Below are positions 9,531 through 15,780 of a DNA stretch of 24,444 nt, piece by piece; the stretch's first letter is position 1; every line of letters starts with the position of its first letter. The DNA comes from a virus. Made by a program: the position numbers and the translations under genes. Below the pieces are notes generated by a model, which was given only the letters and a program-made list of their open reading frames with translations, was not told the DNA's origin and ran no database searches. The DNA lies in IMG/VR virus record IMGVR_UViG_3300035670_001202, positions 1 to 24,444 of that record, one strand, 5' to 3'.

Positions 9531-10292
9531 ATGAAGTATGGGATTATCGGCAGTGGTTCTGCCAACCCCAAGGTAGTACAAGACGGTTTGCTGGACATCG
9601 TTGATGGCGATGGCGAAGCGACATTTGTTATCCACGCACGCCGTGCTCCACAGGGAGCCGTTAGTGATGTCTATGACTTCTTGGTAGATAATGAAGTTCC
9701 CTTTGATGCTGTGCATCGCATTGATGACAATGCACCAAAAGCGTTGTTGAACTGTGCTATCAATGTCACCAAGACAGAAGACCCTGTAAAGTCCATTCTG
9801 GAAATGTGCGACAAGATTCTCCTTCTGTGGGATGAATCTAACGAGGAATCATCTGAGAAGTTGGCAATCATGTGTGCAGACGCTGGTAAAGCCATTCTGG
9901 ACTTGACTATGGCACTGACGCCTATTGTTATTGAGGGTTCGCCAGAACCTGAGAAAGTTGTACAAGAACCTGTACAAGTTGAAGAGACAGTTGATGTCTC
10001 ACCATTTAGCCGTGATGAGTTGATAAACATGAACATTGGAGTGCTTCGCCGTCAGGCTAAAGCAATGGGTGTTGAGAATGTTGGTAAGACCAAGGAAGAA
10101 ATTGTTGATGCAATCCTTGGATGTACACCAGAGGTAACAACTACTGCACCAGTGGTCTCTAGTGACTTCCATGTTCCACCCGTACAACTACCTAGCGAGT
10201 TCGCTGTTATTTCTTGGTACGAGAATGGGATTATGCAGGTGGCTCAAGCACCTGTTGAAAAGATTAAGCGACTACTTGGTGGAGGCAGTTAA
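9531..10292 (+). CDS. SLOG/Rossmann-like protein with SAP/Rho-N-like C-terminal motif, function unknown
   Basis: A 253-residue protein with a clear AGGAG site at 9519-9523. The N-terminus starts YGIIGSGSAN, a Gly-rich strand-loop, and a later strand-helix pair reads KILLLWDESNEESSEKLAIM, then GKAILDL. This order is typical of nucleotide-binding SLOG/DprA-like Rossmann folds. A Pro/Glu/Val linker (about 137-160) leads to SRDELINMNIGVLRRQAKAMGV followed by KTKEEIVDAIL (about 161-200), which resembles a SAP or Rho N-terminal nucleic-acid-binding helix pair. The last 30 residues are unrecognised. The gene is the last of the plus-strand late block and ends 21 nt inside the convergent Dps gene. Ligand and role are unknown. 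Confidence 0.5.
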   Translation: MKYGIIGSGSANPKVVQDGLLDIVDGDGEATFVIHARRAPQGAVSDVYDFLVDNEVPFDAVHRIDDNAPKALLNCAINVTKTEDPVKSILEMCDKILLLWDESNEESSEKLAIMCADAGKAILDLTMALTPIVIEGSPEPEKVVQEPVQVEETVDVSPFSRDELINMNIGVLRRQAKAMGVENVGKTKEEIVDAILGCTPEVTTTAPVVSSDFHVPPVQLPSEFAVISWYENGIMQVAQAPVEKIKRLLGGGS

Positions 10293-10706
10293 CTGCCAGC
10301 GCCACTTCTTATGCATGTCATCACGACCTGCTAAGAAATCCATAATGCCCTGCTCGCCAGCCTTCTCTGCTTCTTTGAACGCCTTGTTAACCGATTCAAT
10401 CAGACCTTCGTTGATGCGGAGGAGTTCCTTTGCCATTGCCTTTGGTTCGGGCTTCACATCCTTTGGCTCAATGGTGCGTAGACTCGTGAACTTACTGAGT
10501 GTGTACGGAGCGTACTCTCCCAACTTGCGTACATCTTCCGCAAGTGGGTCAATGGCTGAATAGACATCTTCATAAATCTCTGCGAATAAACCGTGGTACT
10601 GACTGAAGTCTTGTCCCTCAACATTCCAGTGAAATCCCTGTGCAACGAAATACATCGTTACCGAATCAGATAACACGGTCTTAAGAGAATCAGTAAGTGC
10701 GCTCAC
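10272..10706 (-). CDS. dps: Dps-like mini-ferritin (DNA-protection / iron-storage protein)
   Basis: A 144-residue protein. Two GTG codons are adjacent (10709 and 10706). I prefer 10706 because it gives GTGA overlap with the upstream stop and 7 nt spacing to AAGG. It shows the Dps ferroxidase pattern: FHWNVEG with His26, YHG with His38, then Asp53 and Glu57 in AIDPLAEDVRKLG. The spacings of 12, 15 and 19 match those of known Dps proteins. The position four after His38, Asp in Listeria Dps, is Ala here, with Glu next to it. The closing DFLAGRDDMHKKWRWQL matches the last Dps helix. Dps 12-mers oxidise iron with peroxide and can coat DNA. No Lys-rich N-terminal tail is present, so DNA binding is not assured. 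It is the distal gene of the minus-strand cassette. Confidence 0.85.
   Translation of the reverse strand: MSALTDSLKTVLSDSVTMYFVAQGFHWNVEGQDFSQYHGLFAEIYEDVYSAIDPLAEDVRKLGEYAPYTLSKFTSLRTIEPKDVKPEPKAMAKELLRINEGLIESVNKAFKEAEKAGEQGIMDFLAGRDDMHKKWRWQLTASTK
10277..10304. terminator. Hairpin at the convergent gene junction, possible two-way terminator
   Basis: The 14-bp perfect palindrome GGCAGTTAACTGCC (10284-10297) is flanked, after a 2x2 mismatch, by a second short stem TGGTG/CGCCA (10277-10281 with 10300-10304, one G-U pair). It lies exactly where the plus-strand and minus-strand genes overlap, and the plus-strand stop TAA (10290-10292) forms part of the loop. There is no clear T-run on either side, so a classical intrinsic terminator is uncertain. 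Confidence 0.45.
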
Positions 10707-10972
10707 CACTTCACCTTGTCAGCCCAATATGCGGCGCTCAACTTGCCCTTCTTAATGTTCTTTGCATGACGAGCCTTAAATGAATCGTTGCGTGCAGAAC
10801 CATCAGGAGAACCCTTTACACCCTGCTGACCAAAACGAATTGTCTTGATTGTGTCGCCATCTTTAGCAACAACAATGTGAGACTTTGTAGGGTGGTCTGG
10901 TGTTGCCTTAGGCTTGTTGTAACCAGACACACCTGCACGCTCAAGGCGTGGGTCTTTCTTGCTCTCAGCCAT
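10703..10972 (-). CDS. Small basic protein of unknown function (KVKW C-terminus)
   Basis: An 89-residue basic protein with no transmembrane segment or known catalytic motif. Visible blocks are GYNKPKATPDHPTKSHIVVAK (about 17-37), a central DGDTIKTIRFGQQGVKG, and the C-terminal SFKARHAKNIKKGKLSAAYW ending KVKW. I recall similar short proteins from other aquatic phage genomes but cannot name the family with certainty. Its start overlaps the stop of the Cys-rich gene (TAATG), and its stop overlaps the Dps start (GTGA), so it is translated as part of one unit. A nucleic-acid-binding role is only a guess from the charge. Confidence 0.7.
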   Translation of the reverse strand: MAESKKDPRLERAGVSGYNKPKATPDHPTKSHIVVAKDGDTIKTIRFGQQGVKGSPDGSARNDSFKARHAKNIKKGKLSAAYWADKVKW

Positions 10973-11674: not shown

Positions 11675-12166
11675 ATGTCAACCAAATTTGGCGGTCCTTT
11701 CCTAGCCTTTCCCCGATGGGTTTTACCCTATTTGCAAGGGGATTCAACCGCCAAAGCAGTGCTCTTGGAACTACTGGTGTACATGCGCCCTGAGACCCAG
11801 ACAACCACGACCTCATACAAGTACATTGCCGAGCAGGTAGGTGTAGACAGGCGCACAGTTATCCGTGCCATTCAGCGTCTGGAATCGGCTGGTGTCATCA
11901 TCAGAAAGCACCGTGGGACCAAGGGGCATAACCTGTCCAATGCCTTTCTCATCAACTTCAACAACCCCCAAGCCATGGAGGGGGTAGTGTCACCCATGAC
12001 ACTAGGTGGTGACACTGGTGACACTAGGGGTGGTGACACCCATGACACTACCCTAGTGTCACCCATGACACCCAATAAAGAGTATAAGAATAAGAGTAAA
12101 AATAAGAGTACCCATATCAAGAGGCAGACTGAGGGGTATGACGATGTGGAGGTCAGTCGTGTCTGA
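11675..12166 (+). CDS. Winged-helix replication initiator, lambda O-like in layout
   Basis: A 163-residue protein with GGAG at 11664-11667. Residues about 1-95 contain a winged-helix domain: an N-terminal helix rich in Leu and Tyr, then SYKYIAEQVGVDRRTVIRAI as helix-turn-helix and RLESAGVIIRKHRGTKGHNL as wing. This is the kind of DNA-binding domain seen in phage replication initiators. Residues about 103-145 are a low-complexity linker of repeated GDT, SPMT and KNK units, encoded by the DNA repeat cluster at 11985-12110. The protein ends in YDDVEVSRV. The following genes are a partner protein, a helicase loader and DnaB. Together this resembles lambda O, whose gene also contains the origin. 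A plain transcription regulator is the alternative. Confidence 0.7.
   Translation: MSTKFGGPFLAFPRWVLPYLQGDSTAKAVLLELLVYMRPETQTTTTSYKYIAEQVGVDRRTVIRAIQRLESAGVIIRKHRGTKGHNLSNAFLINFNNPQAMEGVVSPMTLGGDTGDTRGGDTHDTTLVSPMTPNKEYKNKSKNKSTHIKRQTEGYDDVEVSRV
11985..12071. repeat. Iteron-like TGACAC repeat cluster with two palindromic units
   Basis: Plus-strand TGACAC starts at 11997, 12010, 12019, 12034, 12043 and 12066. The reverse form GTGTCA starts at 11987 and 12056. The first palindrome, TAGTGTCACCCATGACACTA (11985-12004), has perfect 8-bp arms around CCCA. A second copy, TAGTGTCACCCATGACAC, sits at 12054-12071. The two inverted units frame the four direct copies, making the whole array roughly symmetrical. 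Confidence 0.85.
12074..12110 (+). repeat. AT-rich direct repeats, possible DNA-unwinding element
   Basis: AATAAGAGTA occurs at 12089-12098 and 12101-12110, with a close variant AATAAAGAGTA at 12074-12084. The stretch from 12074 to 12110 is almost all A, T and G on the plus strand and abuts the TGACAC array. It encodes the Asn/Lys/Ser-rich end of the linker in the initiator protein. Confidence 0.6.
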
Positions 12167-12548
12167 TGATTGGGGACCAGCCTTCGGAGAAGACCCAGAG
12201 GCAAAAAAAGAAACGCCGAAAAAGACACCGAGAAAAGACACCTTGTTTGGGATGACCACCTACTTCTCGGAACTGTTGCCGAGAGACGCTTGGGGCAAGT
12301 TGAACTCCCCCGTGAACTTTCCAGCGATGTCAAAAGGATTAAAGAAACTTCGTGATGCTGGTTACACCTCAGACCAGATTCGTAGCATGATGGAACTGTT
12401 CATCGTGGACATCAAGAGAAAGCCACTGACAGAAGGTGTTGCTCCGTGGCGTGCCTTCCTTGCTAATCTTGACGCTCTCGCCACACGAGCAACCAACCAG
12501 CAGAAACCAGAGAGTTATGACGATGTTGAAACTGACCGAAGGCTTTAA
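12159..12548 (+). CDS. Replication partner protein, possible second half of the initiator
   Basis: I chose GTG 12159 because GGAGG (12148-12152) lies 6 nt upstream, giving 129 residues and an 8-nt overlap with the initiator gene. In-frame ATGs at 12138 and 12144 are possible but have poor spacing. The N-terminus is charged and Lys/Pro-rich. Residues about 32-110 form a helical domain (TYFSELLPRDAWG, then SKGLKKLRDAGYTSDQIRSM, then PWRAFLANLDAL), reminiscent of the C-terminal helical parts of phage replication proteins. It ends PESYDDVETDRRL, which repeats the YDDVE motif at the end of the upstream initiator. It likely works between initiator and helicase loader, but no family is certain. Confidence 0.55.
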   Translation: MSDDWGPAFGEDPEAKKETPKKTPRKDTLFGMTTYFSELLPRDAWGKLNSPVNFPAMSKGLKKLRDAGYTSDQIRSMMELFIVDIKRKPLTEGVAPWRAFLANLDALATRATNQQKPESYDDVETDRRL

Positions 12549-12550
12549 TC

Positions 12551-13207
12551 ATGGGTGAACTTCGTAGTCAAAAATACTGGCGCAACAGACCAGCAGAAGA
12601 GCGTGTCCGTAACACTGCAATCCCTAAGAGATTCCGCACACAAACCTTGGACACATTCAAGCCACTAGAGAAAGACAGGGAGTCCTTAGACCTCATCCAC
12701 AAGTGGGTTGATAAAGCACCAGACATGGTGGAAGACGGTCAAGGTTTGTACATCTGCGGAGGAACGGGTTCAGGAAAGACACACCTGGCTCAAGCATTGT
12801 TGAAGAGAGTTGTTTATACGAACAACCTCTGTGGCATGTTCATTACTTCTGAGAAGTACATCCAGATGTCATACAACGAAATCAAGTTTGGTGATGAACT
12901 TCCAGAAGGCTATGAAGACCCAAACACAATGAAGTATCTGCAAGAAGTTTTTGACATCGTTGTTATTGACTCTCTTGGCTCAGAGAGGCCGACAGACTTT
13001 ACGAAGCGCACAATTGTTTCGTTGATTGAATCTCGTTACCATAACCAGTTGACAACAATCATCACAAGTACATACAAGCCAGCAATGCTTGACCAGTTGT
13101 ACGGAACCAGTCTTCAATCAATTATCAAATCCAGTTGTTACATTGCGCCATTGAGGGGCGATGACTATCGCATGTCAGAATGGTTGGAAAAGGGAACGAC
13201 TAGATAA
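12551..13207 (+). CDS. DnaC/IstB-like AAA+ helicase loader
   Basis: A 218-residue protein. The N-terminus (about 1-60) is basic and helical, with PKRFRTQTLDTFKP, a usual lead-in of DnaC/IstB proteins. Walker A is GGTGSGKT (70-77). Walker B is FDIVVIDSLG with Asp140; the second acidic residue of the family's DD/DE is Ser here. A C-terminal part with TIITSTYKPAMLD (sensor 1 region) and SIIKSSCYIAPLRGDDYR follows. These ATPases load DnaB onto origin DNA. The place between the initiator genes and DnaB matches lambda P or DnaC function. The stop overlaps the next start (TAATG). Confidence 0.82.
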   Translation: MGELRSQKYWRNRPAEERVRNTAIPKRFRTQTLDTFKPLEKDRESLDLIHKWVDKAPDMVEDGQGLYICGGTGSGKTHLAQALLKRVVYTNNLCGMFITSEKYIQMSYNEIKFGDELPEGYEDPNTMKYLQEVFDIVVIDSLGSERPTDFTKRTIVSLIESRYHNQLTTIITSTYKPAMLDQLYGTSLQSIIKSSCYIAPLRGDDYRMSEWLEKGTTR

Positions 13208-13647
13208 TGCAGGGCAATGACATCATTGATTACGCACCACTGGCACAAGGGGTTGTGTTTGATGGACTTCTTGCGTCACCACCTGCTGGTTCAAAATCTT
13301 TTCTAGAAACAATTCAACGCAGGCGTGATAACTGGGATGCTGTTATGCGTTTGTGGGAACCACACGAGTTACCAATCAAAGCATTGTCCGACAGTGTCAA
13401 TCGTTTAGGTCTTGGAACAGATGTGTACACATTCATCCATGAAGATGCAGTAGATGCAATTGACCACTGGTTGTTACGCAAAGGGATTAGTTGCCCTGTG
13501 TACTACTACGAATCTCCAGAACTTTTGGAATACGACTTGCGCTTTAGTCGTGCAGTGCGTATCATCTACACCTCTAACGAAGAGGTCGCTCAAATCATTG
13601 GTCCACGAGCCACGGTTGTGAGCGCAGAAAAGGCATGGGCACCATAA
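13207..13647 (+). CDS. Unknown protein between helicase loader and helicase
   Basis: A 146-residue soluble protein, TAATG-coupled on both sides. No known motif is evident. The middle alternates strands and helices: TDVYTFIHEDAVDAIDHWLL, then GISCPVYYYESPELLEYDL, then AVRIIYTSNEEVAQIIG, then ATVVSAEKAW. This could be a small alpha/beta (Rossmann- or HAD-like) fold with no visible active site. The tight placement between loader and DnaB suggests a replication-associated role, but the sequence does not show which. Confidence 0.6.
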   Translation: MQGNDIIDYAPLAQGVVFDGLLASPPAGSKSFLETIQRRRDNWDAVMRLWEPHELPIKALSDSVNRLGLGTDVYTFIHEDAVDAIDHWLLRKGISCPVYYYESPELLEYDLRFSRAVRIIYTSNEEVAQIIGPRATVVSAEKAWAP

Positions 13648-14906
13648 TGGCTAGTAGCGAACATCTGCTAATCAGCAAAATCATCCAGAGTGCAAGCGTT
13701 ACCGAAGTCGTAGATGCAGGTGTCCGACCTGACCACTTCACCTCTGAGTTGTCAACGGTGTACATGTGGATTCTTAGTTACTGGCGTGAGTACAGCGCAG
13801 TACCAACACCACGAGTTGTTAAACAACAGTTTGCTGACCTGCAATTAGTCAACGCAGAAGCAGAACCTTTTCCACGACTCATTGATGAGTTGTACATGGC
13901 GTACAAACACAAACACCTTGTGCTTGCTGTTACAGCCGCAACTCCATCACTCAATAACCATGACACAGACGAAGCGACAAAGATTCTCTCTGAGGGTTTG
14001 CAAAAAGCGGCGCTAGAGGTTGCACACCTTCGTGATGTTGACATCATCCAATCTTGGGAACAGCGTATTGAGCGTTACCGAGAAATGCGTGACACGCCAA
14101 ACTTCTTGCGTGGTATTCCAACAGGTTTCAATGGTCTTGACAAAATCACCGCAGGCTTTCGCCCACAGCAGTTGATTACCTTCGTAGGTGAAGCCAAGAA
14201 AGGTAAGTCATTGATGACACTCATCATGGCTCAAGCGGCTCACGCACATGGCATCACACCAATGTATGTTTCGTTTGAAATGAGTATTGAAGAGCAAGAG
14301 GCTCGCTATGACGCATTGGTTGCAGGAGTGTCACACAACAAAATCATGCGTGGCGATTTGAATCTCGCAGAACTAGAGAAGATTGAACAGTCCATCAAGA
14401 TTCGTAAGAACATGCACCCATTCATCATGACAGAAGATGCTTCATCATTGACTACTGTTAGCGCCATCGCTGGAAAGATTCAGCAGTACAGGCCAGGTCT
14501 TGTCATCGTTGACGGTGTATACCTGATGGATGATGAGAACGGTGAACCTAAGGGAAGTCCACAAGCATTGACTAACATCACCCGTGCGTTGAAAAGACTT
14601 GCACAACGGTTTGATGTTCCTTTGATTGGTACCACACAGGTTCTTGCGTGGAAACTTGGTAACAAGAAATCACGACAAATTACATCGGACTCAATTGGTT
14701 ACACCTCGTCATTCGCACAGGACTCAGACCTAATCCTCGGTGTTGAATCAGACCCTGATATTGACAACCAAGCAATTATCCGAGTTGTTCTTGCTCGTAC
14801 AGCACCAAAGGGTGAAGTGCGAATCAAGTGGGATTGGGACAACATGAACTTCACCGAAGTAGGAGAAGACGGAGAGGAGGCGGACAATGATGGCTGGTAC
14901 TACTGA
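13647..14906 (+). CDS. dnaB: DnaB-like replicative DNA helicase
   Basis: A 419-residue protein starting at the TAATG ATG (13647); the in-frame ATG at 13635 would add four residues. The N-terminal domain (about 1-150) is helical, as in DnaB (EHLLISKIIQSA, then FTSELSTVYMWILSYW). The C-terminal RecA-like domain opens with RGIPTGFNGLDKITAGF, has Walker A GEAKKGKS (181-188), MYVSFEMS with the motif-1a Glu, and Walker B GLVIVDGVYLM. The motif-H3 region reads GTTQVLAWKLGNKKS, and the end has DLILGVE and VVLARTAPKGEVRIKWDWD. It unwinds the fork as a hexamer and partners the primase just downstream. The C-terminus is acidic. Confidence 0.9.
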   Translation: MASSEHLLISKIIQSASVTEVVDAGVRPDHFTSELSTVYMWILSYWREYSAVPTPRVVKQQFADLQLVNAEAEPFPRLIDELYMAYKHKHLVLAVTAATPSLNNHDTDEATKILSEGLQKAALEVAHLRDVDIIQSWEQRIERYREMRDTPNFLRGIPTGFNGLDKITAGFRPQQLITFVGEAKKGKSLMTLIMAQAAHAHGITPMYVSFEMSIEEQEARYDALVAGVSHNKIMRGDLNLAELEKIEQSIKIRKNMHPFIMTEDASSLTTVSAIAGKIQQYRPGLVIVDGVYLMDDENGEPKGSPQALTNITRALKRLAQRFDVPLIGTTQVLAWKLGNKKSRQITSDSIGYTSSFAQDSDLILGVESDPDIDNQAIIRVVLARTAPKGEVRIKWDWDNMNFTEVGEDGEEADNDGWYY

Positions 14907-15780
14907 CCTTGCAGACTTCTTAATGTCAATTGGCGTAGATGTACGCCGAGCAGGACAAGAAATTTCAGGACGATGCCCAGTGCACCTGTCTCGTACAGGT
15001 AAAGAAGACAACTCCCCATCATGGTCTATGAACGCAGACTCTGGTCTGTGGTTGTGTTACTCCTGTGGTGCTCGTGGAACACTGCCACAGTTGATTATGG
15101 AGTTGACAGGTAAAGATGACTTCTCTGTCACACAGATGTTGATGAATAACAGTGTTGAGCGCCTACAGATGCCTAAGTGGGAAAAGGTGCCTGAGGTAGA
15201 CCACCACATGTATTTACACTACGGTGATGTCCCTAGTCAGTACCTAAAGTCAAGAAACATCAGTGAAGAGTCAGCACGGGCATATGGAATCCGTTGGAAC
15301 GAAAAGAATTACTCATGGATTATTCCGATAATTAGTCCAGAGGGTGTTCTAGTTGGTTGGCAAGAAAAGGCAAAGGACTTTGTACGCAACCATCCTCGTG
15401 GTCTAAAGATGCGTAACACCTTGTTCGGTATTGAGAAAGCCGTACACAAGACGATAATCCTCGTAGAGTCCCCACTAGATGTCGTCCGTTTTGCATCATC
15501 GTTTGATGGCATGAACTGTCTAGCAACTTTTGGTGCATCAATCACCAAAGAGCAATTACAACTTGCCTACACAGTTGCCGACAAATTAATTGTGGCAATG
15601 GATAACGACAAGGCTGGAATTGACAGCGCAAAAAATATATTTAAAGATATGCCACTTCTCAAAGGAGGCGTGTACTGGTTGAAATACAAGCACACCAGTG
15701 CAAAGGACATTGGAGAAATGTCTGACGCTGAACTTGAAGAAGCGGTGGTTAACTCTTCCGTTATCCCTTGGTGGTTGTGA
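14887..15780 (+). CDS. dnaG: DNA primase with CHC2 zinc finger and TOPRIM domain
   Basis: A 297-residue protein. ATG 14887 has AGGAGG 6 nt upstream and overlaps the helicase gene by 20 nt. The zinc finger has Cys30, His33, Cys57 and Cys60 (CPVH, then CYSC). The TOPRIM domain has Glu194 in ILVESPLDVVR and Asp239/Asp241 in AMDNDKAG. At 297 residues it is short compared with the roughly 600-residue bacterial DnaG, lacking most of the helicase-binding C-terminal domain, as is common for phage primases. Together with DnaB it would make lagging-strand primers. Confidence 0.88.
   Translation: MMAGTTDLADFLMSIGVDVRRAGQEISGRCPVHLSRTGKEDNSPSWSMNADSGLWLCYSCGARGTLPQLIMELTGKDDFSVTQMLMNNSVERLQMPKWEKVPEVDHHMYLHYGDVPSQYLKSRNISEESARAYGIRWNEKNYSWIIPIISPEGVLVGWQEKAKDFVRNHPRGLKMRNTLFGIEKAVHKTIILVESPLDVVRFASSFDGMNCLATFGASITKEQLQLAYTVADKLIVAMDNDKAGIDSAKNIFKDMPLLKGGVYWLKYKHTSAKDIGEMSDAELEEAVVNSSVIPWWL

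Follow-up and report, generated by a model that had tools for sequence, protein, structure and literature searches.

A candidate lambda-type replication origin within the initiator gene of a group of uncultured environmental phages

In the window, i.e. the whole 24,444-bp virus record analysed here (IMGVR_UViG_3300035670_001202, positions 1 to 24,444), ORF1, the initiator gene, carries in its 3' part a tandem array of four 18-bp dyad iterons next to an AT-rich tract, which together, with a probability that we put at roughly 0.88, form a replication origin of the lambda type. This reading is based on the anatomy of the array, its conservation at the DNA level, the joint change of half-sites and recognition helix, and the surrounding replication genes, all of which can be read directly from the sequences compared. 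The features concerned are the following.

11675 to 12166, + strand: ORF1, initiator of 163 aa, with a winged helix-turn-helix (wHTH) at about residues 14-98 and then a disordered, origin-encoded tail (HTH_36, PHROG, AlphaFold2)
11986 to 12003, + strand: iteron 1, AGTGTCACCCATGACACT (dyad pattern)
12008 to 12025, + strand: iteron 2, GGTGACACTGGTGACACT (dyad pattern)
12032 to 12049, + strand: iteron 3, GGTGACACCCATGACACT (dyad pattern)
12055 to 12072, + strand: iteron 4, AGTGTCACCCATGACACC (dyad pattern; read in the other codon frame by many relatives)
12073 to 12117, + strand: AT-rich tract (A-rich strand) containing three AATA(A)AGAGTA repeats; presumably the DNA unwinding element (low GC, repeats kept in relatives)
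12138 to 12548, + strand: ORF2, small helical protein of 136 aa, presumed initiator-loader adaptor (position; tail like that of ORF1)
12551 to 13207, + strand: DnaC-like helicase loader, AAA+ (phrog_50, E 5e-33)
13635 to 14906, + strand: DnaB-like replicative helicase (Pfam DnaB_C, E 2e-29; phrog_19, E 7e-62)
14887 to 15780, + strand: DnaG-type primase with zinc ribbon and Toprim (Pfam and PHROG scans)

With respect to the repeats themselves, the eight TGACAC/GTGTCA hexamers listed in a preliminary description of this DNA are all present within 85 bp (starts at 11987, 11997, 12010, 12019, 12034, 12043, 12056 and 12066). They resolve into four dyads of 18 bp, RGTGWC-N6-GWCACY, which make up an 87-bp array (11986-12072) and start 22, 24 and 23 bp apart. 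Since distant relatives retain GTGTC-N6-GACAC but not the full hexamers, the dyad is the natural unit and has replaced the hexamer as the repeat unit. Of the two palindromic units with 8-bp arms that had been proposed, one is indeed perfect (TAGTGTCA-CCCA-TGACACTA, 11985-12004), whereas the perfect arms of the fourth unit comprise only 6 bp. A pattern scan allowing for one mismatch found RGTGWC-N6-GWCACY in the window at these four places only. The array begins more than 300 bp into ORF1, and iterons 1 and 4 are translated as VSPMT, iteron 2 as GDTGDT and iteron 3 as GDTHDT. As in lambda-type origins, a tandem dyad array thus lies within the coding region of the initiator, both in the window and in nearly all relatives.

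Directly after the hexamers follow, as described before, three copies of AATA(A)AGAGTA (12074-12084, 12089-12098 and 12101-12110). The 44 bp starting at 12073 have a G + C content of about 25%, and only 0.55% of all 44-mers in the window are equally AT-rich; the coding strand of the tract is A-rich. In the relatives, repeats of the type (T/C)AAGARTA are kept in register, and the AT-rich tract adjoins the array there, too. Such a tract next to the iterons, presumably the unwinding element, is a further property of lambda-type origins. DnaA boxes (TTWTNCACA), which would be expected of a DnaA-dependent origin, are absent from the entire window, no Rfam family matched, and a search for a sigma-70 promoter upstream gave no match above chance.

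Scans of a viral collection with ORF1 queries, and one scan with an ORF2 query, yielded a set of 66 distinct ORF1-plus-array sequences, the window included. These relatives are metagenomic contigs, and because many of them are near copies the following array counts are not independent. Four dyads were found in 47 sequences, five in 14, three in 3 and one in 2, so that 64 of the 66 have three to five; iteron spacing is 22-24 bp with few exceptions (32 arrays, 128 iterons). In ten of eleven relatives of 43-95 kb, exact matches to the GTGWC pattern are confined to the array, the other one having a single stray match. One sequence with a single iteron (L035:3001-3450, on a contig shared with L062) has an ORF1 that stops right after it, with the AT-rich tract and ORF2 intact; either three iterons were really lost or the assembly collapsed the repeat.

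Whether relatives retain the repeats to a degree that codon constraint does not account for had been set beforehand as a test of the origin, and the array passed it. Iteron 4 and the AT-rich tract are read in one codon frame in the window, L008, L020, L022, L081 and L082, and in a second one in the close relatives L001, L002, L003, L005, L016 and L018. Between the two frames, this segment shows 77-85% nucleotide identity and 38-52% amino acid identity; in the same comparison the DNA-binding domain shows 71-77% and 82-91%, respectively. Synonymous recodings of the same peptide contain on average 1.9 half-sites and 0.24 dyads, as opposed to the 8 and 4 observed, and none out of 20,000 reached either number. 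Moreover, one half-site is inverted between L007 and L005, where the peptide changes from D to V and the site is preserved. Judged by these comparisons, the array is conserved at the DNA level and selected as DNA.

ORF1 matches Pfam HTH_36 (E 4e-11) and PHROG families of replication initiation and O-like proteins (E down to 8e-16), and in line with an O-like DNA-binding domain the O-like families 391, 678, 345 and 8540 match all 27 relatives scanned. The AlphaFold2 model is a wHTH, with residues 99-163 at a pLDDT below 50 and hence predicted to be disordered; its fold matches are mostly transcription regulators, and the RepA structures 4pt7 and 5kbj are among the weak ones. No profile match was obtained between ORF1 and lambda O itself, and no named phage turned out to have a close counterpart of ORF1 or ORF2, the only matches being weak and O-like. 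The C-terminal domain of lambda O recruits the helicase loader. Whereas lambda O comprises 299 aa, with its C-terminal half after the origin, ORF1 with its 163 aa ends about 30 residues past the array and has no such domain.

The half-sites do not have the same sequence in all relatives. In L025, three of the four iterons read GTATC-N6-GATAC and the first GTATC-N6-GACAC, while the iterons of the L083 group are made of GTAGC or GTAGT half-sites. Both arms changed in a compensatory manner, namely pair 4/15 from G:C to A:T in L025 and pair 5/14 from T:A to G:C in L083 and L084. The half-site class tracks residue 60 of the recognition helix (window numbering) in all 66 sequences: it is R or S in 55/55 GTGWC arrays, T in 10/10 GTAGY arrays, where position 58 is H, and I in the single GTATC array. 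According to a tree of the DNA-binding domain, there were two separate changes of the half-site (to GTATC and to GTAGY), each with a new residue 60. Because half-sites and residue 60 changed together in these two events, the ORF1 protein is likely to be the reader of the array, although two events are no proof of a code. In addition, the arrays upstream of ORF2 in L074 (2250-2420), L227 and L255 contain some asymmetric iterons, with one half GTAGC or GTAGC-like and the other GTGTC; their ORF1 proteins are related S/S proteins with S at helix position 60, and the mixed iterons are possibly intermediates between half-site classes.

The genes downstream bear out the earlier statement that the wHTH gene is followed by a helicase loader and DnaB, the arrangement known from lambda-type origins, except that ORF2 additionally intervenes before the loader. 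A 146-aa gene sits between the DnaC-like loader and DnaB, and the primase is followed by genes for a helicase, an SSB-like protein, a DNA polymerase, a UvsX-like recombinase and a Cas4-like exonuclease. Just before the replication module, a few small genes form a short block that runs leftward; it includes, on the minus strand at 10272-10709, a gene for a Dps-like DNA-binding protein (phrog_3636, E 8e-27). A host search through prokaryote genomes found none; DnaB is distantly similar to that of Streptomyces phages (about 35%), which is a hint that the host may be an actinobacterium.

ORF2 matched neither Pfam nor PHROG, its fold search returned nothing significant, and no profile match to lambda O was found. 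It lies downstream of ORF1 in the relatives, in most of them with a 4-nt overlap of ORF1, and it is related to gp115 of Streptomyces phage BRock (L043:2706-3167), located just upstream of the DnaC-like gene of BRock; near this gene no array was found, just the ORF2 relative. ORF2 is thus an uncharacterised protein family that occurs just upstream of DnaC-like loaders in this phage family and in BRock. In the window, the C-termini of ORF1 (YDDVEVSRV, 12136-12166) and ORF2 (YDDVETDRRL, 12516-12548) are alike, and tail pairs that resemble one another within a lineage were seen in many relatives, e.g., GYEDLRVDERI and SYEDLEVDHRI in L008, KIDPRLMS and KIDPRLMSNNE in L083, and GIDPRLKRKK and KIDPRLKK in L034; in the L024-L053 clade, the motif is missing from most ORF2 proteins. 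From their sequences, the similar tails are possibly a shared docking motif or the trace of a duplication, and a common partner, most simply the loader or DnaB, would be a guess.

Among the closest known systems is lambda. There, the origin lies inside the initiator gene O, as is proposed here for ORF1, also in the related Stx phages; O dimers bind inverted-repeat iterons, and an AT-rich tract is required for unwinding (PMC7466680). Like the window, lambda ori has four 18-bp inverted-repeat iterons, whose starts are 20, 24 and 23 bp apart (22, 24 and 23 bp in the window), an A-rich AT tract directly after iteron 4 and a helicase-loader function encoded downstream. However, the lambda iteron ATCCCTCAAAACGAGGGA is unrelated in sequence to those of the window, and unlike in lambda the loader is a DnaC-like AAA+ protein and the phage carries its own DnaB and primase. 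In SPP1, gp38 acts on repeats within gene 38, with gp39 as loader and gp40 as helicase; as in the window, oriL consists of direct repeats inside the gene of the origin-binding protein together with an AT-rich unwinding element, and the loader and the DnaB-family helicase are phage-encoded (PMC6316719). SPP1 has two origins, oriL and oriR (PMC6316719), whereas only one array was seen in the relatives studied here; the likeness described is one of layout. The RepA_N plasmid pSK41 likewise has its origin inside rep: the N-terminal wHTH domain of the initiator binds four Rep boxes in the centre of its own gene, and the origin-encoded part of the protein is a linker, which is followed by a five-helix DnaD-like C-terminal domain (PMC5703833); ORF1 has no such domain. 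Finally, gp71 of the Streptomyces phage TurkishDelight contains a wHTH related to ORF1 (profile match, hhalign 92%, E 6.5e-7), and both gp71 and O of the Shigella phage SfII, which are O-like HTH proteins from phage isolates, have in-gene arrays made of other repeat sequences than the window. With its 429 aa, gp71 has a long C-terminal part without resemblance to ORF2. Its gene (L106:3324-3456) holds its own dyad array, GTCACG...GTGAC, which is probably the origin of TurkishDelight; the features shown for this phage mark no origin there.

As the array lies inside a coding region and the encoded peptide is repetitive, it might be argued that selection acted on a repeated peptide (DTxDT), or that codon bias was at work, and that the DNA itself was not selected. 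This is hardly credible, as one and the same DNA sequence is translated as VSPMT and as GDTGDT within one protein, half-site classes change on both strands, and the tail is predicted to be disordered. Selection for a repeat at the protein level was rejected, since nucleotide identity stays high across the frame change while that of the peptide does not, and since no recoding restored the observed numbers.

That the array is nothing but an autoregulatory operator, through which ORF1 would repress or attenuate transcription of the replication operon while replication starts elsewhere, would fit with wHTH proteins often being repressors and with the prevalence of transcription regulators among the fold matches of the model, and a match between ORF1 and the array would look identical. 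We nevertheless consider it improbable, given that the array is located more than 300 bp into the gene and the presumed promoter region has no dyad nearby, that it adjoins a conserved AT-rich tract with repeats of its own, which is expected of an origin but unneeded by an operator, and that the sequence families matched by ORF1 are those of replication initiators. Still less probable is that ORF1 binds the array as a centromere-like partition site or as a structural site of another kind: centromeres are likewise iterated sites, and the weak fold matches of the model include TubR and the pNOB8 centromere-binding protein, but these match no better than many other wHTH proteins. Moreover, no partition ATPase or TubZ was seen adjacent, the neighbours examined being the loader, DnaB and the primase, and the AT-rich tract suits an unwinding element.

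If the array is a lambda-type origin, dimers of ORF1 would bind the four iterons, each GTGWC half-site being contacted by one recognition helix, and would fold the array of 87 bp into a complex like the O-some; the resulting strain would open the A-rich element next to it. The DnaC-like loader would then put DnaB on the exposed strand, perhaps after recruitment by ORF2, by the C-terminal tails of the two proteins ORF1 and ORF2, or by both, and the primase and DNA polymerase of the phage would act next. All steps from the binding of ORF1 through unwinding and the loading of the helicase to the start of replication at the array are inferred by analogy with lambda and SPP1; the cumulative GC skew of four relatives of 92-95 kb has no extremum at the array and was uninformative. 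More tentatively, the initiator might be split into a minimal DNA-binding ORF1, with a tail made up of the translated origin and a short acidic peptide, and the new-family adaptor ORF2 with a similar tail, both tails docking on the DnaC-like loader or on DnaB, and the pairs of iterons and recognition helices (R or S with GTGWC, I with GTATC, T with GTAGY) might form a natural specificity code; this combination appears to us possible but rather doubtful.

Taken together, conservation in relatives, copy number, unit length, spacing and the A-rich tract support the view of the preliminary description that an origin laid out like lambda ori is embedded in the initiator gene. Its suggestion of a new origin type goes too far, because the array is of the same kind as lambda ori, SPP1 oriL and the pSK41 ori, from which it differs by the iteron sequence and the shorter initiator. 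New features are the iteron family, the lack of a C-terminal domain in the initiator beyond the origin, and an uncharacterised partner protein whose C-terminal tail is similar. The phage family in which this very probable origin occurs is an undescribed one of uncultured environmental phages. So far, origins have been located in few uncultured phages, and this candidate is recognisable from the sequence by itself, since its conservation runs counter to the reading frame in which it lies. The relatives form a natural set of initiators paired with their sites, with at least two changes of the half-site, so that a recognition code is directly testable, and the ORF2 family, encoded between the genes for the initiator and the loader, is a candidate for an adaptor in helicase loading.
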